NCBI RefSeq assembly: GCF_004210375.1
Contig: NC_134833.1
Location: 20,577,396 to 20,641,395 of the forward strand
Origin: Tachypleus tridentatus
Lineage: Eukaryota; Arthropoda; Merostomata; Xiphosura; Limulidae
Direction of reading: 5' to 3'
DNA length: 64,000 nucleotides
Part shown: positions 5,573 to 59,358 of the stretch, piece after piece
How the letters are laid out: each line of letters opens with the position of its first letter
Position numbering within the stretch: position 1 is the first letter of the stretch
The notes under the pieces: model-generated
Told to the model about the DNA's origin: nothing
Databases searched by the model: none
Seen by the model: the letters and a program-made list of their open reading frames with translations, nothing else
Position numbers and translations under genes: made by a program

Positions 5573-6072
5573 NNNNNNNNNNNNNNNNNNNNNNNNNNNN
5601 NNNNNNNNNNNNNNNNNNNNNNNNNNNNNNNNNNNNNNNNNNNNNNNNNNNNNNNNNNNNNNNNNNNNNNNNNNNNNNNNNNNNNNNNNNNNNNNNNNNN
5701 NNNNNNNNNNNNNNNNNNNNNNNNNNNNNNNNNNNNNNNNNNNNNNNNNNNNNNNNNNNNNNNNNNNNNNNNNNNNNNNNNNNNNNNNNNNNNNNNNNNN
5801 NNNNNNNNNNNNNNNNNNNNNNNNNNNNNNNNNNNNNNNNNNNNNNNNNNNNNNNNNNNNNNNNNNNNNNNNNNNNNNNNNNNNNNNNNNNNNNNNNNNN
5901 NNNNNNNNNNNNNNNNNNNNNNNNNNNNNNNNNNNNNNNNNNNNNNNNNNNNNNNNNNNNNNNNNNNNNNNNNNNNNNNNNNNNNNNNNNNNNNNNNNNN
6001 NNNNNNNNNNNNNNNNNNNNNNNNNNNNNNNNNNNNNNNNNNNNNNNNNNNNNNNNNNNNNNNNNNNNNNNN
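5573..6072. other. assembly gap of 500 N
   Basis: Exactly 500 N, a fixed-size scaffolding placeholder rather than a measured distance. Any open frame reported across it is meaningless. Confidence 0.99.
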
Positions 6073-25374: not shown

Positions 25375-28300
25375 GTAACGCTTTGACTTTTAAGATATAT
25401 CGATCAAAATAACGGTAATTTTAAAGGTGATTTTTTTTACTGCTTCGGTTTTATTTTATATTTTGGGCTCGAAATGTAAAAAAAAATATATATCTATATC
25501 TCATTTTTAATTTATATAGACTCGTACGGCCCGGCATGGCCAGGTGGTTCAGGCACTCAACTCGTAATCCGAGGGTTGCGTGTTCGAATCCCCGTCACAC
25601 CAAACATGCTCGCCCTCCCAGCCGTGGGGGCGTTATAACGTGACAGTCAATCCCACTATTCGTTGGTAAAAGAGTAGCCCAAGAGTTGGCGGTGGGTGGT
25701 GATGACTAGCTGCCTTCCCTCTAGTCTTACACTGCTAAATTAGGGACGGCTAGCACAGATAGCCCTCGAGTAGCTTTGTGGAAATTCCAAAAAACAAACA
25801 AACAAACTATAAGTTTCCAGTATAAAACAAATACTCCCTGACACCTAACTATAAGTTTCCGGTATAAAAGAAATACTGCCTGACACCTAACTATAAGTTT
25901 CCAGTATAAAAGAAATACCGCCTGACACCTAACTATAAGTTTCCATAATAAAAGAAGGACCATATCATAAAATTGGCTGACACCTAATTATGAGTTTCCA
26001 TTATTTTTAGAAATGTCTTCTTGAATGCATATAATTGATATAGTTTTCTTAAACCTAGTCACGTGTTCTACTGCTCTAACCGATATTTTTCCTGTTAGAT
26101 TTCCGAAGTTATCTGTACAATGCATCACTGACTAACTGCATCAGGTTGTGATTGACAGACATGTCAACATTCTGCTGACATCTTCAACTTTAACACTTTG
26201 TTGTTGTTTTTAATGCTTTTTAGAAATAAATAACCTTATCGCATTTTTGTGCGAGAAAGGAGTAAATTTTGTTCGAATCTTTAAAATTGGGTCTTGGCGA
26301 AATAGACCTCAGGAACAAACGCAGACGGAAGACTTCCTGTATACAGTAAGTAACCCTGAACTATATCCAGTGAGGTTTGCTTTCGTTTTAAAAAAAACCA
26401 ATCTCTTCTGCGCAGAAGTAGCATTTCATTTTTAAAATCGTTTAAGAAAGAATCGTTAGGAAACTTAAACTTATGTATTTCTTCTTAAGTCGAGCTTTTT
26501 CTTGTGGTTTCCATGCTCAGACTGTGAAGACAAGGGTTTCCGGTCCGCTACCGAGATCCCTAACAGTATGGTTATGGATTCACTATAAGGACGGCCTAAC
26601 CCCACTATTTGATCGAAAATGTTTTCTAGGCCACACGCGCACCAAAAAATAATAAAAAAATGATAAACGGGATTTGACCTTCACTTGATTTTACAACAAA
26701 GTGTTTCAGTAACATTTTATCTCCAAGTTTCCTGTATAACCACTCCGTTGTTAACATGTACTATCCGGTAATATGTAGTGTTGGCTTTTTATCAATCCAG
26801 ATTTTGTGCTTTTACGAGAGAATAAGTTATTTATCACGAAACGCATTTAGAAACCATATAATCATTAAGATATTGCGTAACTACATTTAGAAACCACATA
26901 ATCGTTAAGATATTGCGTAACTACATTTAGAAACCATATAATCATTAAAATATTGCGTAACTACATTCAGAAACCATATAATCATTAAAATATTGCGTAA
27001 CTACTTTTAGAAACCACATAATCGTTAAGATATTGCGTAACTACATTTAGAAACCATATAATCATTAAAATATTGCGTAACTACATTCAGAAACCATATA
27101 ATCATTAAAATATTGCGTAACTACATTTAGAAACCATATAATCATTAAAATATTGCGTAACTACTTTTAGAAACAATATAATCATTAAAATATTGCGTAA
27201 CTACATTCAGAAACCATATAATCATTAAAATATTGCATAACTACATTTAGAAACCATATAATCATTAAGATATTGCGTAACTACATTTAGAAACCATATA
27301 ATCATTAAAATATTGCTTAACTACATTTAGAAACCATATAATCATTAAAATATTGCGTAACTACTTTTAGAAACCACATAATCGTTAAGATATTGCGTAA
27401 CTACATTTAGAAACCATATAATCATTAAAATATTGCGTAACTACATTTAGGAACCATATAATCATTAAAATATTGCGTAACTACATTTAGAAACCATATA
27501 ATCATTAAAATATTGTGTAACTACTTTTAGAAACCACATAATCGTTAAGATATTGCGTAACTACATTTAGAAACCATATAATCATTAAAATATTGCGTAA
27601 CCACTTTTAGAAACCATATAATCATTAAAATATTGCGTAACTACATTTAGAAACCATATAATCATTAAAATATTGCGTAACTACTTTTATAAACCACATA
27701 ATCGTTAAGATATTGCGTAACTACATTTAGAAACCATATAATCATTAAAATATTGCGTAACTACATTTAGAAACAATATAATCATTAAAATATTGTGCAA
27801 CTACATTTAGAAACCATATAATCATTAAAATATTGCGTAACTACTTTTAGAAACCACATAATCGTTAAGATATTGCGTAACTACATTTAGAAACCATATA
27901 ATCATTAAAATATTGCGTAACTACATTTAGGAACCATATAATCATTAAAATATTGCGTAACTACATTTAGAAACCATAATCATTAAAATATTGTGTAACT
28001 ACTTTTAGAAACCACATAATCGTTAAGATATTGCGTAACTACATTTAGAAACCATATAATCATTAAAATATTGCGTAACCACTTTTAGAAACCATATAAT
28101 CATTAAAATATTGCGTAACTACATTTAGAAACCATATAATCATTAAAATATTGCGTAACTACTTTTATAAACCACATAATCGTTAAGATATTGCGTAACT
28201 ACATTTAGAAACCATATAATCATTAAAATATTGCGTAACTACATTTAGAAACAATATAATCATTAAAATATTGTGCAACTACATTTAGAAACCATATAAT

Positions 28301-31300
28301 CATTAAAATATTGCGTAACTACATTTAGAAACAATATAATTATTAAAATATTGTGCAACTACTTTTATAAACCACATAATCATTAAAATATTGCGTAACT
28401 CTTAAGTAACCATTTCTCCCTTTTTCCCTTCCATATATATTTTGTCACGTAATTTCTATAGAAGGTTTGGTTTTCGTTTTCATTTTAATTACGCGCAAAG
28501 CTACACAAGAGCTATCTGTATTAGCTGTTCCTAATTTAGTAGTATAAGACTAGAGGGAAGGCAGCTAGCTATTCATCATCACCCACCGCTAACTTCTGGG
28601 CTACTCTTTCACCAACGAAAAGTTGGATTGACTCTCACATTGCAATGCCCCACGGCTGAAAGGGCGAGTATGTTTGGTGTGACGGGGATTTAAGTCATTA
28701 CATCTGTCAAAACAACTTAACACAACAAATATTTAATTCATTATGTCTATTAAAACAACTTTAACCCAATAAATATTTAAGTCATACATCTGTCAAAACA
28801 ACACCATAAATATTTAATTAATTACATCTGTCAAAACAACTTAACAGAATAAATATTTAAGTCATTACATCTCTCAAAACAACTTTAACACAATAAATGC
28901 TTAAGTCATTACATCTGTCGAAACACATTTAACACACTGTTTAACAGATGCACCGTATTCATGGTCTATTTATTAAGTTTTCTCAGAACCTTACTATATT
29001 CTTATTGTTGTTTTATCAGTATAATTAGAAACATAAATTTTTAGCAATTTGTTATAAGTGTATATTAGAAGTTTCACCATGCATTAAGACAAGGCTTCCT
29101 AAACTTTCTCAACACAAGGTCCCTCAATTTATTCTAATTGAGGCATTTCCATCAAATACATTTTTAAGATACTGAGTATTTTAACAATTTTTCTGAGCCC
29201 CATGGGTCCAAAACCACCAATATGGGAGCTCCAGCAAAAAGAAAATGGTTAACCGATATAAATCGAGACCCGAAAAACGATATATCTTCTTTAATAACAT
29301 TATGCAACACAATTTTTACTTTTTCTTGTTCCTGGACAGAAAGTGTTATTTCCCAATTGCTTATGCCTAAGATAATTGGAAAAGACCTAATTTTCTCTTC
29401 AAACTTTGCTTTTGTGACCTGGGTAATGAAATTTTCAAATTTACCCATTTTCCAGAACATTCCAGGTAGATTCAGTGCTGAGTAGCTGATAGAGAATTCT
29501 CTCGAACTTACAAGAATTTTCAACTACTTTCTAGAATGTTGTAGAACTTATGAGAATTTTCAAGAACCTTTCAGAATTTTCTAGAACTTTCCATAGCAAT
29601 ATATATATACAGGGGCTCACCACTCACCATTGCAATTTATTGAACACATAGACCGATCTGATTTTATCACAGATGGCATCAAGAAGTTGCAAGCATTCTC
29701 CAGACAAATTCTGCTATATATGTGGCCAATTTATCAAGACAACAGTGAAAAAGTACTCTGTGACAGCGTCTGCTAAAATATGTGAAGCCTACAAGGCATA
29801 TTTCAGCATGCCTATCGGTGACCAAGACAAACCCTGGGCACCTCATTTTACCTGCGAGCACTGCAAAAAAACTCCAGAAGGTAAGACGGACAATTTTTGC
29901 TTGCTTGAGTAGTAAGATCTTATATTATATAAATTTTATACCCTTTAAAATTTAAATATCTTTTTTTAAATTTCCAATAGTATAGAAAAGTATCATATAT
30001 AAAATATTTTGCATGAACCTCTTACACATTAGTTGTGGATGAAAGAAATTTATTCTTCATAATAACAATTTTATTTTGTTCTTTTACAGGATGGTACAGA
30101 GGGGAAAAGAGAGCTATAAAGTTATCTATTCCAAGAATTTGGCATGAACCCACTGACCACTCAAACAATTGCTACTTTTGCATGGTGGACACTTCCAAAT
30201 GTCGGGCTGGCAAGAATACATCTGTTATCATGTATCTGGACCTTCCATCATCCATTGCCCCACCTCCAAACTGCCCTGAGCTCCATGTACCCATTCTGCC
30301 AGAGAGAAAGCAGCAACTCAGAAGAGGAGGTAGACATTGAAGATCCAGATTACAATTTCAGAGGTGCAGCTGGTGAGAGAAACCCATACTACCCCAACCA
30401 AAGAGACCTCAATGACTTGATCAGAGATCTTGGTCTAACAAAGTGGAATACAAAGACTATAGTTAGGGGCTGAAACGTGAAAGTGATTTACATTACAGTT
30501 AGAAATCTCGAAAAACTACTCACTTCTAAACATTTCTGTATAACTTTAGTATAAATACATGCACATCTTGATTCATATGTTGTTTTATTCAAACCTTATG
30601 TGAATGAAAATGTGCAAATTTGCCTGTTTTTACATAGAAAATAGGTTAGTTTTTAAATTTCATTATCCAGGTCACAAACGCAAAGTTTGAAGGGAATAAT
30701 GGCCATTTTCTGTACTTTTACAACATAAGTAATTAAGAAATTACATAGTGTTATTTGTATTACATAGTGTTATTTGTGTTACATGGTGTTATTATTAAAT
30801 CTTATGAATTGGATATTTTAAGAGACCGTTGATAGTTGTACAATGGGCTATCTATTTTCCGCCCACCACGGGTATCGAAACCTCGTTTCTAGGGCTGTCA
30901 ATCCACAGACATATATCTGTGCCACTGGGGAGGGGAGGTACACTCTGTGAGAAGAATTACAAATATATTTTATTTCTGTAACGTAGGAAAGCCTATCATG
31001 AAATCAACAGTTTCTAAGTCTCCATTTGATGTCAAGAGGAGCATCGAAAGTGATCGTCCCTTAATTAATAATACTAGAACGTATGGCCCGGCATGGCCAA
31101 GCGCGTTAAAACGTTCGACTCGTAATCCGAGGGTCGCGGGTTCGAATCCGGTCGCACCAAACATGCTCGCCCTCCTAGCCGTGGGGGCGTTATAATGTTA
31201 CGGTTAATCCCACTATTCGTTGGTAAAAGAGTAGCCCAAGAGTTGGCGGTGGGTGATGATGACTAGCTGCCTTCCCTCTGGTCTTAAACTGCTAAATCAG

Positions 31301-34300
31301 GGACGACTAGCGCAGATAGCCCTCGAGTAGCTTTGCGCGAAATTCCAAACAAACAAACAAATACTAAAACGTTTCTCGACAGTTTTAATCATACCATTGT
31401 CAGAACCGAAACCAATACCTAAAGATCATTCATAATCTTCTTAACCCTAACGACATGAACAGTTTCTGTGATGTAAGAACTGCTAAGACTACTCAATCAG
31501 TTTTCAGCATTGGTAAGAACGTAATTTAATAAGGCTGTTGGAGGACATTGTCTATTGTAATAAGATTTTAGCTATTTATTTATTTTATAATATATACCGT
31601 ACAAAATTCAAGAATAGCATATATACCATAATGAACCAAACAAACGAAATTCTTCACGCTTATTCTCTCTTATATGCTTACATCATTATGTCTAACCAAC
31701 TTCCACTAAGTGTTTGTTTAAAAGCGTTGTCCGCTTCTAACTAAATGTTACAGTTTTATAAACAGTTTCTCTGTTCATAACAAGTTCATCACATGCATTT
31801 AATAAACATCGCTTGTCTCCCTGGTGTTTAAACATGTTTAACAATCATAAAAAATGGGTGGTGTGAGAGAGCGAGTGGTTGAACTTGAGTGTGGACATGT
31901 TGCCTCTTTGTCTTTGGAGCAGCTTCCCTTTTTTTCTGTTCATATAGGGATCAAGGAGACAGATCGCCGCATCCTGATGTATAATCGCGTCCCCAAGTCT
32001 GGCAGTGAGGCTATGACTGTGTTTATTTCTAAGTTGTCTCACCTCAACCACTTTGACCACCACAGATCTTCAGTTTTCAACAAGCGACAGCTCACTAAAG
32101 ACGAACAGGTAACGAACAAAGAATTTTATTTTCTCTACGCTGTTGCAGCTCGTGTTTATATGGACTTTGTACACTTCTGCTTACGAAATACATGTAATTA
32201 TATTTTATGTTCAAATTTTTTGTTTCTTTTCAACTTTTGCGCAAAGCTGAACATGAGCTATCTGCGCTAGCCGTACCTACTTTAGCAGTGTAAAACTAGA
32301 GGGAAGGCAACTGATCATCACCACCCACCGCCAACTTTTGAGCTACTATTCTACCAACGAATAGAGGTGTTGACAATAATGTTATAACGACCCTACGGCT
32401 GAAAGGACGAACAGGTTTTGTGTGATGGGGATTCGAAGCCGCAACCCTGAGATTGCGAGTCAAGCCCCCTAACCACCTGACCATGCCAGGCCAGTTTCCG
32501 AACGTTCAAATCCTGAAACAAAATGTTACAATAAATTTTATTTAAAATCTTAGAAATTAGATTTGCTCAGAAAATGTTAAACACCTAAGTAATTTCAAAC
32601 ACACATTTTTTTCAAACCATTTCAAATACTGTGGTCATAGACTTATTGCCTTTTACGAAAGATAGAGGTAGGAACTGTTACACGTGCTTAACTGATTGCC
32701 AAACCACGTGTCGTTTTGTTTTGTAGGAGTAAATTACGATGTGTTAATACCAGAAGGCAACGTGTAAGACAACCAATTCGTTTTAGTTTCAATTCGTACA
32801 AAATGCCTATTACACATTACATGAGTAGGTTCATCTTGGAGCGTGAAGTTAAAAATGAATTACAGATAGGTGCAAATGTTGTAGCAACTTTACAATAGGA
32901 AAATACGAGGTCTGTTCAAAAAATACGCGGACTGTTTGAATTGCGCGGCTCCAGTTGGTTCCAGGGGCATCCGCTTGGTGTCGCTAGGTTTGCACAGATC
33001 AGCTGATTACGACGCCATTTCCCGATTGCAGATATCTTCATTTGTCTATTAGCCACGCGGTTTTAAGTGAAGTGCGATTTTTTCGTTTGGCGGATTTCAG
33101 AATGAATGACCTGAAGGAGCAACGACTTGCTGTGAAATTTTGTGTTAAACTTGGAAAATCTGCGACTGAAACTTTTTGCTATGCTTAACACGGCTTACGG
33201 TGATGTTGCTATGAATCGTACGGCATGTTTCAAGTGGCATGAACGTTTTAAGGATGGTCGACAGTCCATTGAAGATGATGAGCGTCCTGGACGTCCTTCC
33301 ACGTCAACTGACGACCCACACGTCGACAAAATCAACACCCTGGTGCGGGCAAATCGACGTCTGACTGTCAGGGAGCTTGCTGAAGAGTGTGGGATATCAG
33401 TTGTATCTCGTTACGAGATTTTGACGAAAAATTGAAGATGCACCGCGTTGCTGCGAAATTTGTGCCTCAGAACACGTGAGTTTTTGGCCAAACACTCGAT
33501 CACTGTTCTTCTCCACCCCCCTACTCACCTGAACTTGCTCCTTGCGATGTTTTCTTGTTCCCCAAACTAAAAAGACCCTTGAAAGGAAGAATATTTGAGA
33601 CGATTCCCGAGATTAAGGCAAATGCAAGAGGACATTACAAAAGAAGCGTACCAGAACTGTTTCAACAAGTGGAACCACCGTTGGGATAAGTGTGTGCGTT
33701 GGGGAGGAGAGTACTTTGAAGGGGTCCCAGACCTGTAACTTCTAAATAAAGTACATTTTGTTTTATGACGTCAGTCCGCGTATTTTTTGAACAGCCCTCG
33801 TAATTACCTAATTTACTTCGCAGGTTCGAATCCCCGTCACACCAAACATGCTCGCCTTTTCAGCCGTGGGGGGCGTTATAAGGTTACAGTCAATCCCACT
33901 ATTCGTTGACATGTAAAGAGTGCGTATGTCACCACCCGGAACGTCTTAATTCGTAGTTCAATTTAACATTTTTTCAAATTCAGTTATTATTAAAATAGCT
34001 CATTTGTTACTTCGTTGTAGACCTACAATTTCCAACCTGGATTTCATTTTAGCGAAAATCTGGGTCCTGTATCAGAAGAACTTGTATTTAGTACTCCAAA
34101 GCGCTACAGAAGTATCTACGTATTTTTAACTTATAACAGTATTTAAAACAATCTAATCTTTAAAGAAAAACTCAGTAATTACTGAAACTTTTAAACAAGC
34201 AAACTTTCTCAGAACATACAATAATAAAACTATAACTACATAACTATCGCTTTGCTCCAAACTTATGAAATACAGTTTGATAAATTCCCTGCTAACTGCA

Positions 34301-52387: not shown

Positions 52388-54805
52388 CAGGGGTGGATAC
52401 AGGATATTTTGGTAGGGAGGGGGGTATGATCGCCTAAGAAACAGTGACTTAAATCCGACCCCAAGTAAACTTTTCCTTGTTACTGCAACATAAATGTCAT
52501 GGAATTTGTTTAGAAACAAAGAAAAGAAACATACATGACTATGAACTGTCATTTATTGATTTTATTCTAAAATATCAAGTTACAAGTAACCATACAGCAC
52601 TATATTGAATCACACAACATAGTGCATGTTACAAGTAACCACACAGCACTATACTGAATCACACAACATAGTACATGTTACAAGTAATCATACAGCACTA
52701 TACTGAATCACACAACATAGTGCATGTTACAAGTAACCATACAGCACTATACTGAATCACACAACATAGTGCATGTTACAAGTAATCATACAGCACTATA
52801 CTGAATCACACAACATAGTACATGTTACAAGTAACCACACAGCACTATACTGAATCACACAACATAGTACATGTTACAAGTAATCATACAGCACTATACT
52901 GAATCACACAACATAGTGCATGTTACAAGTAACCACACAGCACTATACTGAATCACACAACATAGTGCATGTTACAAGTAATCATACAGCACTATACTGA
53001 ATCACACAACATAGTGCATGTTACAAGTAATCATACAGCACTATACTGAATCACACAACATAGTGCATGTTACAAGTAACCACACAGCACTATACTGAAT
53101 CACACAACATTGTACATGTTACAAGTAATCGTACAGCACTATACTGAATCACACAACATAGTGCATGTTACAAGTAACCATACAGCACTATACTGAATCA
53201 CACAACATAGTACATGTTACAAGTAATCATACAGCACTATACTGAATCACACAACATAGTGCATGTTACAAGTAACCACACAGCACTATACTGAATCACA
53301 CAACATTGTACATGTTACAAGTAACCATACAGCACTATACTGAATCACACAACATAGTACATGTTACAAGTAACCATACAGCACTATACTGAATCACACA
53401 ACATAGTACATGTTACAAGTAATTATACAGCACTATACTGAATCACACAACATAGTGCATGTTACAAGTAACCATACAGCACTATACTGAATCACACAAC
53501 ATAGTACATGTTACAAGTAATCGTACAGCACTATACTGAATCACACAACATAGTACATGTTACAAGTAATCGTACAGCACTATACTGAATCACACAACAT
53601 AGTGCATGTTACAAGTAACCATACAGCACTATACTGAATCACACAACATAGTACATGTTACAAGTAACCATACAGCACTATACTGAATCACACAACATAG
53701 TGCATGTTACAAGTAACCATACAGCACTATACTGAATCACACAACATAGTACATGTTACAAGTAACCATACAGCACTATACTGAATCACACAACATAGTA
53801 CATGTTACAAGTAATCATACAGCACTATACTGAATCACACAACATTGTACAAGTTACAAGTAATCGTACAGCACTATACTGAATCACACAACATAGTACA
53901 TGTTACAAGTAATCATACAGCACTATACTGAATCACACAACATAGTGCATGTTACAAGTAACCATACAGCACTATACTGAATCACACAACATAGTACATG
54001 TTACAAGTAATCATACAGCACTATACTGAATCACACAACATAGTACATGTTACAAGTAACCTTACAGCACTTTACTGAATCACACAACATAGTACATGTT
54101 ACAAGTAATCGTACAGCACTATACTGAATGACACAACATAGTACATGTTACAAGTAATCATACAGCACTATACTGAATCACACAACATAGTGCATGTTGC
54201 AAGTAATCATACAGCACTATACTGAATCACACAACATAGTACATGTTACAAGTAATCATACAGCACTATACAGAATCACACAACATAGTGCATGTTACAA
54301 GTAATCATACAGCACTATACTGAATCACACAACATAGTGCATGTTACAAGTAATCATACAGCACTATACTGAATCACACAACATTGTACAAGTTACAATG
54401 AACTTTCATGTATTCCTAAATAACATGTTACAAGTAAACATACAGCACTTAGGCCTACAGCAGTATATCGAATCACGTACACAGCATATTAACATGATCT
54501 CTTTAACACCACAGTACATATGACCATGTACTCTCGTTTATTCCAAATCATTTCTGAGGGGAAGTAAGTGACGGCTTAGTGGGTTGATCTAGCCAATACT
54601 ATAAAGTCACTCGGTCTGAGGTCAATTTAGTACTGGTCAGACAGTAGCTCCTTGTTCCTGGGGAAATCCCACTAAGTGGTCTACGTAATCAAAAATATTC
54701 TGATTGAGATGATCAGTACTTTATATTTCTGATTTCCCACTAACCTACACAATTTTGGTATGGCCAGTGGGGGGAATGCACTACCCCCCTCTGTATCCAT
54801 CCCTG
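52388..54805. mobile_element. nonautonomous hAT element containing a 49-bp satellite
   Basis: The left end CAGGGGTGGATACAG and the right end, read inward, CAGGGATGGATACAG differ at one of 15 bases, and G-rich sequence follows in both. Flanks CATTACAG (52380-52387) and CATTGCAG (54806-54813) match at 7 of 8, an 8-bp hAT-type target duplication. No transposase frame is present. About 1.83 kb of its 2.42 kb is a tandem array. Confidence 0.8.
52582..54412. repeat. 49-bp tandem repeat, about 37 copies
   Basis: The unit begins ACAAGTAACCATACAGCACT and ends CATAGTACATGTT. Copies differ at a few recurring sites (CCA/TCA/CCAC/TCGT near the start, GTGC/GTAC near the end), so several variant classes are interspersed. 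There are no unique spacers, so it is not a CRISPR array. A stray partial unit follows at about 54424. Confidence 0.97.
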
Positions 54806-57893: not shown

Positions 57894-58741
57894 ATGATAG
57901 CATGAAAATCTGAAGTATAGGAAGCGTGTTAACGCGTGAAGATGTCATCACTCATTACATTAGATGCACCAAAAATGCACAAACTGACATTTAAATACAA
58001 AAGATATAGTTACTATTCACATACCTAACAGAACGTATCTTACTATAAAGATAATTGCTACATGTGTGCGTGTGTCAGTGTGTCTTATGGTAACTGGAAA
58101 TTAGCAGACGATTTTTAAGTTATTTTATTTTAGGATTTTTGTTCCAAAACGGAGATAAGAAAAATCCCTTAAAATAGGGCATATTTAAATTTTTTTCTAT
58201 GTTTTTTGCTCTCACAATTGGCTCGTTCGATTATTGTAATTTTTTGTATGAAAACTGGAAACTGTCTAACGGTGCACATGCGCTATTTACTCTATCATTT
58301 CTTTCCCAAGAAAATAAATAATAAACACCGGCAACTGGGCCACGTCTTCACTTTTAGACTTTTCTCTTTTAATTTAAAGACACAAGTAATTAATAAGTTA
58401 AATGACTCAATGATTATCTACACAAATCACGGCTTGCGATTAGCATCTAATGAGATCATTGGGAATTTTACTGATAAGAAAGGAGAGCATTATCTAACAT
58501 TATTATTTATACAATATTTACTTTCTTAACAATAACTGGAAAATGATCAGTTTACCCAACTCTCTGTGTCTCGTTGTTACTGTTCTAAAATGTTGTGGTT
58601 TCAACTCTCTACCTATTCTAATGCCACAATTTATAGCCATGTCACGCTTTTAAAATACTGTATTACTCAGTCGCCCTTCATAAACGTCTTTGTTTGCACA
58701 TTAGTTACCATCTCATAACTTATTCTTGTTTCTAAATATAG

Positions 58742-59358
58742 ATGACGAACCATTGCACTTTAGCGCTGCTTTTGAGATTTGGTTGATTGGAATAACACGT
58801 GGAGGCGTGATCGAAGTCTCAACACGATCTCCCAATGAATATCTTACCGTTTCTCATAAAGAACACTTGAAACACTTACCTTTGGAAAGTCACGCTGCCG
58901 TTTCGCCTTCTGAGTTCTTCACGAAAAACTTGGAACAGGATGACTTATGGGAGTCCATGATGGATGACAATGGTGAAGATAAGATATTTCTTTTACGTAT
59001 TTCTCCAAATACTCTGGATGATGGTTCCTGGTATCTTTACAGACAACATTTTCAAGTTCCTGGAATAACGAAGAGTGGCAATGATCCTCAGAAACGTCAG
59101 TTTGTATCTTGGGGTGGAAAAAGGGATACTGAAGACAAAGACATTCAGAAACGTCAGTTTGCCGCTTGGGGTGGAAAGAGGAATGCTGACGATTTTGAAC
59201 CTCAAAAACGTCAGTTTGCCGCTTGGGGTGGAAAGAGAGATTTCGTTCCTTGGGGTGGAAAGAGAAAGCTGGACTACAAGTATAACAAGAAAGATTTTAA
59301 TGCTTGGGGTGGAAAAAGAGGACTTGAGCCAATGAAATATGACGGTAGTTACGAATAA
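58742..59358 (+). CDS. kinin (leucokinin) neuropeptide precursor, last coding exon
   Basis: Encodes a secreted prohormone for five kinins with the FxxWG-amide core: QFVSWG (59098-59115), QFAAWG (59155-59172 and 59212-59229), DFVPWG (59239-59256) and DFNAWG (59293-59310). Each is followed by Gly for amidation and Lys-Arg for cleavage, and preceded by KR or KK. Gln-first copies may become pyroglutamate. About 115 residues of spacer precede the peptides; an 11-residue acidic tail (GLEPMKYDGSYE region) follows. The frame opens upstream without a Met, and TTTCTAAATATAG gives a phase 1 acceptor at 58741, so the signal peptide must lie on an earlier exon. Kinins act through a GPCR on Malpighian tubules, gut and neurons in insects; arachnids also have them. 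The stop is TAA at 59356. Identity is certain from the repeated motif; the 5' structure is not resolved. Confidence 0.93.

Follow-up and report, generated by a model that had tools for sequence, protein, structure and literature searches.

Heat-shock-element-like arrays upstream of predicted transposase genes of a multicopy DNA transposon in the horseshoe crab Tachypleus tridentatus

A long run of alternating GAA and TTC triplets directly upstream of a TATA stretch and a start codon raises the question of what kind of gene carries such an arrangement, and whether the run and the gene occur together elsewhere in the genome. The locus lies in a 64,000 nucleotide stretch of the Tachypleus tridentatus genome (NC_134833.1, positions 20,577,396 to 20,641,395 of the forward strand), which is referred to as the window throughout and to whose first letter all positions given without a contig name refer. 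An initial annotation of the window, made from the letters alone, had described a cysteine-rich two-exon gene of a many-copied and possibly mobile family with its own heat shock factor (HSF) responsive promoter.

The array and the transposon copy in the window

Our analysis confirmed that GAA and TTC triplets alternate on a 5-base grid. Twenty slots begin at 29494+5k, the last one occupying 29589-29591, and read GAA CTC GAA TAC GAA TTC CTA TTC GAA TTG GAA TAT GAA TTC GAA TTT GAA TTC GAA TTC; 14 of them are perfect, four carry one mismatch and two carry two. When the window was dinucleotide-shuffled 200 times after removal of N, the best run was 4 to 6 in 199 shuffles and 7 in the remaining one. 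The reversed triplets AAG/CTT, used as a control in the window, gave a best run of 6, and the best alternating GAA/TTC run in the window minus 29301-30800 was 5. The grid pattern, as it had been described initially, is thus real and far above chance. The array is positioned upstream of and near a TATA box (8 bases), as at HSP70, and the ATG of the window copy follows 3' of the TATA stretch at 29673. Tandem heat shock elements (HSEs) permit cooperative binding of HSF trimers, and a nearby TATA box makes for an HSP70-like promoter, a likeness that is drawn here because the TATA box lies 7-8 bases from the array.

The gene downstream of the array did not turn out as first read. A two-exon gene up to 30473 had been proposed, but with a GT/AG junction placed by eye at 29880/30090 the spliced frame stops at 30340, and the open reading frame ending at 30473 lies in a different frame, so that the proposed gene joins two frames. 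Since both of these exon 2 stretches are mostly in one frame in the five relatives translated, we consider the window copy to be frameshifted. It is also without the segment that longer copies carry at ~30449/30454. An inverted repeat formed by 29379-29452 and 30637-30710 is 81% complementary, 31 of 38 other copies lose their homology on the left side at 29287-29297, and right-side homology ends ~36-40 bases past the base equivalent to 30745. The exact left end of the window copy was derived from 29 other copies whose ends could be read and its right end from the family, a readable right end being absent from this copy. We conclude that ~29298-30788 probably represents one copy, internally deleted, frameshifted and by its looks dead, of a cut-and-paste DNA transposon that is abundant in the genome and bounded by terminal inverted repeats. 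The cysteine-rich gene described initially is not a functional gene; it corresponds to the 5' portion of the transposase gene of a transposon copy that is itself broken. An Rfam search of 29200-31400 gave no match. The features of this copy are listed below together with those of the second transposon family.

Table 1. Features of the window copy and loci of the second, piggyBac-type family. Positions without a contig name are those of the window.
Feature	Position	Strand	Basis or remark
Left terminal inverted repeat region	29298..29452	+	Family end CACTATGTAAC..., window variant CATTATGCAAC...
Heat-shock-element-like array, 20 alternating GAA/TTC slots, 14 perfect	29494..29591	+	Grid count and shuffles
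TATA stretch, 8 bases past the last HSE unit	29600..29609	+	Sequence reading
Predicted exon 1 of the transposase gene	29673..29880	+	69 codons and one base; two CxxC pairs
Predicted intron, GT...AG, retained among copies	29881..30089	+	Copies align across
Exon 2 remnant, to the stop after the frameshift	30090..30340	+	Open reading frames compared with relatives
Exon 2 continuation in another frame, ending just past the internal deletion junction (~30449/30454)	30341..30473	+	
Right terminal inverted repeat region	30637..30788	-	Local 19-bp tandem expansion at 30740-30793
piggyBac family locus with HSE array, TATA and ATG (L064)	C1:55586190-55587290		
piggyBac family locus with HSE array, TATA and ATG (L065)	C1:65450716-65451816		
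piggyBac family locus with HSE array, TATA and ATG (L066)	C1:95598273-95599373		

The further proposal that the first intron of a sulfotransferase gene harbours the element found no confirmation. The open reading frame at 31854-32270 had no Pfam match, a 49-residue piece of it had no match among PDB sequences, and the 13 Sulfotransfer_2 matches listed genome-wide all lie outside the window. Elsewhere in the window, an open reading frame at 58726-59358 (plus strand) encodes repeated ...WGGKR units and resembles a neuropeptide precursor of the allatostatin-B type, with no Pfam match at E 0.01. Large tandem arrays occupy 26844-28400 (40-bp unit x 39) and 52579-54398 (49-bp unit x 37). Positions 5573-6072 are 500 bases of N, and open reading frames there are therefore unreadable.

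The transposon family in the genome

The family is multicopy and amplified, as the initial annotation had supposed for arthropods. A 21-base exon-1 pattern with at most 3 mismatches matched 2662 times genome-wide vs 16 times for the reversed control. A DNA search of the same genome gave 3834 candidates, and all of the 40 that were scored align over most of the query with the intron included; their similarity to the window is 82-90%, apart from the window itself and L002/L009 (99%, segmental duplicate). In this last case window positions 28600-31600 are duplicated ~345 kb away (L009, C9:20950907-20956386) with the flanks included, which argues for segmental duplication and not for transposition. 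Searching the genome with the exon-1 protein yielded 6224 initial candidates, and the 150 that were scored and listed are mostly stop-free. Retroposition is argued against by the retention of the intron, through which the copies align, and a retrogene reading was rejected.

Both ends were readable in 29 of 39 sequences, mostly as CACTATG...CATAGTG or near it; the window was excluded from this analysis for want of a readable right end. Identical 3-mers flank 17 of these 29 copies (11 TTA, 6 TAA), a number reached in 0 of 20000 permutations (permutation mean 8.9), and 15 of 27 copies after one of each of two flank-sharing pairs (L010/L013 and L016/L018) had been removed. Identical flanks of 4 to 8 bases were not found in any of the 29. 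Dispersed copies, inverted ends and TTA/TAA target-site duplications characterize a DNA transposon with terminal inverted repeats and bear out the mobility that had been suspected. The surroundings of the window copy hold a tRNA-like dispersed repeat at 31080-31360 and 28560-28690, which by eye looks like a tRNA-derived SINE and which matches the flanks of several other copies.

Nine of the 15 copies examined represent a longer form with an additional 0.86-1.03 kb, the extra part joining at window position 30449/30454. In four of the five longer copies that were translated, it codes for a conserved domain with the signature DFKMV...KFPCYLC; the domain of the longer copies is transposase-like. 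Among the best 150 of 5466 candidates in a search with the C-terminal domain, no open frame exceeds 325 amino acids and no intact copy was found; as no longer open frame occurs among these 150, the transposon family may be extinct. We take the encoded protein to belong to a family of 'uncharacterised' proteins that is widespread in arthropods and Hydra. Pfam searches with exon 1 and the transposase pieces gave nothing significant, a PDB profile search for relatives returned only six weak matches (E 0.27 to 1.2, villin and interferon-beta), and no relative was present among 332 pattern stretches in viral contigs.

The placement of the family among known superfamilies was considered from its ends, duplications and protein pieces. 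PIF/Harbinger elements combine a TWA duplication with a Harbinger transposase; the TTA/TAA duplication is seen here; the transposase pieces matched no transposase family in Pfam. The family resembles CACTA and CMC elements (PMC1636069, PMC4592977) in its CACTA-like ends, in short duplications and, in some copies, in a CxxC past a conserved Asp of the C-terminal domain. The CMC signatures given in PMC4592977 are C(2)C and H(3)H in the DDE domain; by eye, the C-terminal domain here shows CYLC in L022 and L045, a W for the second Cys in L023 and a stop in its place in L019, and HxxxxH instead of HxxxH. Animal CACTA relatives have been described with ends that begin CCC, with duplications of 2 bp and with a Transposase_21 domain (PMC1636069), whereas the family described here starts with CACTATG, shows 3-bp TTA/TAA duplications and gave no Transposase_21 (PF02992) hit at E 1 for any of the four transposase pieces. 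The genome holds three sub-threshold Transposase_21 matches, none at the copies fetched. Nor is a CACTA start specific to CACTA elements, since a piggyBac element with the ends CACTAGA is on record (PMC4298943). Because no Transposase_21 match was obtained and a CACTA start also occurs in that piggyBac element, we did not file the family as CACTA.

Arrays at transposase and HSP70 genes

By definition, an HSE consists of three or more nGAAn units that are inverted relative to one another and follow a 5-base grid. The window array has this structure, as have 83 of the 84 copies compared, in which at least 3 perfect alternating units occur in the 300 bp that precede the predicted start; at least 5 are present in 73 of 84, with a median of 8 units and a longest run of 28 slots. 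Starts were transferred from an ungapped alignment and can be some bases off. The set comprises the window, 38 copies chosen by DNA similarity to the window, array included, and 45 copies taken from the 150 exon-1 protein matches, for which the array had no part in the choice; the segmental duplicate L009 was removed from this set and from the array consensus. The protein-chosen copies gave at least 3 units in 44 and at least 5 in 39 of 45. Control triplets reach at most 5 in the same 300 bp upstream, and GAA/TTC units at most 3 in the 300 bp downstream of the start. L107 is the sole copy of the 84 with no array, and the arrays of L042, L045 and L052 are no better than control triplets. In 74 of 84 copies a TATA-like string lies at most 60 bases from the last perfect unit, and in 35 of these the offset is 7. 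The initial annotation had named copies without the array as a finding that would speak against its reading, and the opposite was found: the array accompanies the gene and travels with the transposon.

A second carrier was recognized in L064-L066, which had been selected for their differing HSE string. By eye, an array of 7-8 perfect units is followed in these loci by TATATATA and then the ATG, TATA included, and on the outer side of the array L064 has TTAA followed by CACTCCTACG, which L065 has in mirrored form, one end being seen. A DDE_Tnp_1_7 domain was detected downstream of the HSE array. Specifically, PF13843 matches were scored on C1-C6 and on C7 as far as 121.66 Mb, and of these 53 matches 24 have an array 202-747 bp upstream, as sought within 2 kb on the 5' side, where 0.006 would be expected; the distance is 383 bp in four cases and 410 bp in another four. 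For the other 29 of 53 no such array was among the HSEs listed. Judged by its domain, this piggyBac family is an unrelated transposase with its own putative HSE-type promoter. It resembles the family of the window in that one family combines HSE array, TATA and ATG, and differs from it in the unrelated transposase, the TTAA at the one end seen, other spacer bases and a shorter array.

The host HSP70 genes were inspected for the same layout. Five HSP70 upstream regions (L056-L060), which form a cluster on C8, carry by eye TTC-GAA-TTC-GAA just 5' of the TATA box; as these copies are in tandem, the cluster amounts to one independent case. Among three other HSP70-family regions, which may not be promoters, L061 has three units and L062 and L063 have none. 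The layout of the HSP70 promoter matches that of the transposon promoter, with fewer units. A complete HSF DNA-binding domain was found at one locus (C1:40248549). Partial matches to this domain, three of them with stops, are present at C5:40845897, C13:19094986, C13:208316812 and C11:6636561 and represent pseudogenes or exon pieces.

Proposed HSF-type promoters in mobile DNA

The reading that we regard as likely is a transposon with a tandem-HSE promoter at the TATA box driving its transposase. Tandem HSEs directly upstream of the TATA box would drive the transposase gene, and active HSF trimers, present upon heat, other proteotoxic stress or through germline or embryonic HSF activity, would bind the array cooperatively and switch the transposase on. 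Every insertion would then leave an HSF-type promoter behind. HSF control of the transposase is most likely, while HSF binding, induction and a benefit to transposition are parts of this reading that we infer from the sequence.

In plant CACTA elements, subterminal repeats are bound by the transposase and are present at both ends. The array might be a repeat of this kind, with the HSE pattern as a by-product of palindromic 10-bp units, and the CACTATG ends, the 3-bp duplications and the position of a 10/20-bp tandem repeat 0.2 kb from the left end would agree with it. Length steps between copies would agree as well: array length ranges from 20 to 142 bases among copies (L038 left out), many steps being ~10-20 bases, and slippage alone can alter the array since it doubles as a 10/20-bp tandem repeat with such steps. 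We nevertheless consider this explanation unlikely, because the 3' end has no array in any of the 29 copies measured, the terminal 330 bp reaching only 1-2 units, the TATA-like string accompanies the array in most copies, and the same kind of promoter occurs in the unrelated piggyBac family.

Somewhat less probable still is a neutral minisatellite within the transposon that looks like HSEs by accident. In its favour are the unstable array length and the departures of single copies from the consensus, which are about as frequent at triplets (58/912, 6.4%) as at spacers (33/608, 5.4%; p=0.51). In the consensus of 16 alignable arrays, however, diversity over nine decamers is 0.13 at triplets vs 0.46 at spacers, a contrast that ranks 6 among 210 choices of six positions; G, A, A and the first T are invariant over the nine decamers and the spacers vary. 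Four of nine TTC slots of the consensus are off by one base (TAC twice, TTG, TTT), which counts against the HSF-promoter reading. Chance also leaves the placement at the TATA box and the recurrence in a second transposon unexplained. Since triplets vary less than spacers in the consensus and single copies differ equally at both, the pattern suggests that selection kept the array triplets in the active lineage only, as seen from nine decamers that are related and not independent. That the copies are working host genes of a multicopy family under heat-inducible promoters was rejected as highly improbable. The mostly stop-free exon-1 matches and the kept intron would speak for it; against it are the inverted ends, target-site duplications, exon 2 stops and frameshifts in the five copies translated, internal deletions and unrelated flanks.

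With the tandem-HSE promoter as the preferred reading, the best reading of both families is that two unrelated cut-and-paste transposons acquired HSF-type promoters, which suggests that mobile DNA repeatedly hijacked the host stress response. In its broadest form, which to our mind has an even chance of being right, convergent HSF-array promoters in the two transposons would tie transposition to a stress or germline HSF programme, and thousands of dead copies would now hold most strong HSF sites, acting as an HSF sink and as a supply of heat-responsive promoters. Stress-activated transposons are an old idea (McClintock's 'genomic shock'), and to our knowledge the clear cases are retrotransposons and Helitrons. 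ONSEN of Arabidopsis is a heat-activated LTR retrotransposon. In Cryptococcus, the LTR elements TCN3 and TCN12 carry two and one putative HSEs, respectively (PMC12810828). HSEs in the own promoter would couple mobilization to heat in ONSEN and TCN3/TCN12 as in the families described here (TCN: PMC12810828); those elements are LTR elements with few HSEs, whereas here transposase promoters carry arrays of up to 28 slots.

A close precedent is provided by the Helitrons of Caenorhabditis, a DNA transposon family with clustered HSEs, in genomes where most HSEs lie in transposons (PMC6927752). According to that study, almost two-thirds of the HSEs of C. elegans lie within Helitrons, HSEs upstream of the Helitron transposase number 14 in C. 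elegans and 85 in C. briggsae, HSF binding was shown and the own transposase of the elements is heat-induced. Unlike these Helitrons, the carriers described here are two unrelated kinds with inverted ends and have their arrays at the TATA box, and HSF binding is in their case predicted from the arrays. In the literature searched, as judged mostly by listing and abstract start, there was no report of a genome in which two unrelated kinds of inverted-repeat transposon have transposase promoters made of HSE arrays, and no paper brought together horseshoe crab, transposase, HSF and heat shock. The proposed mechanism is legible in the sequence of two unrelated cut-and-paste families of one genome that resemble the host HSP70 promoter, and the convergence on HSF is directly testable because it can be read in two families beside that promoter.

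It would be predicted that transposons are the source of most strong HSF sites in this animal. A five-unit HSE pattern (GAANNTTCNNGAANNTTCNNGAA) matched 1897 times in the genome vs 12 times when read backwards, palindromic arrays possibly being counted twice. A string of the inverted-end transposon family accompanies 1032 of these matches and one of the piggyBac type 254, so that family strings, which are not proof of membership, cover 1286 of 1897. Among the first 100 matches listed, all on C1, the family string is present in 72 and the piggyBac-type string in 12; of the remaining 16, which have neither, three sit 30 bp from a family match; when the C1 sample was merged within 100 bp, the two strings accounted for 69 and 6 of 86 places, respectively. 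Five-unit HSEs with neither string at C1:25577972, C1:31394050, C1:117286316 and C1:121312321 might belong to host genes or to further carriers.
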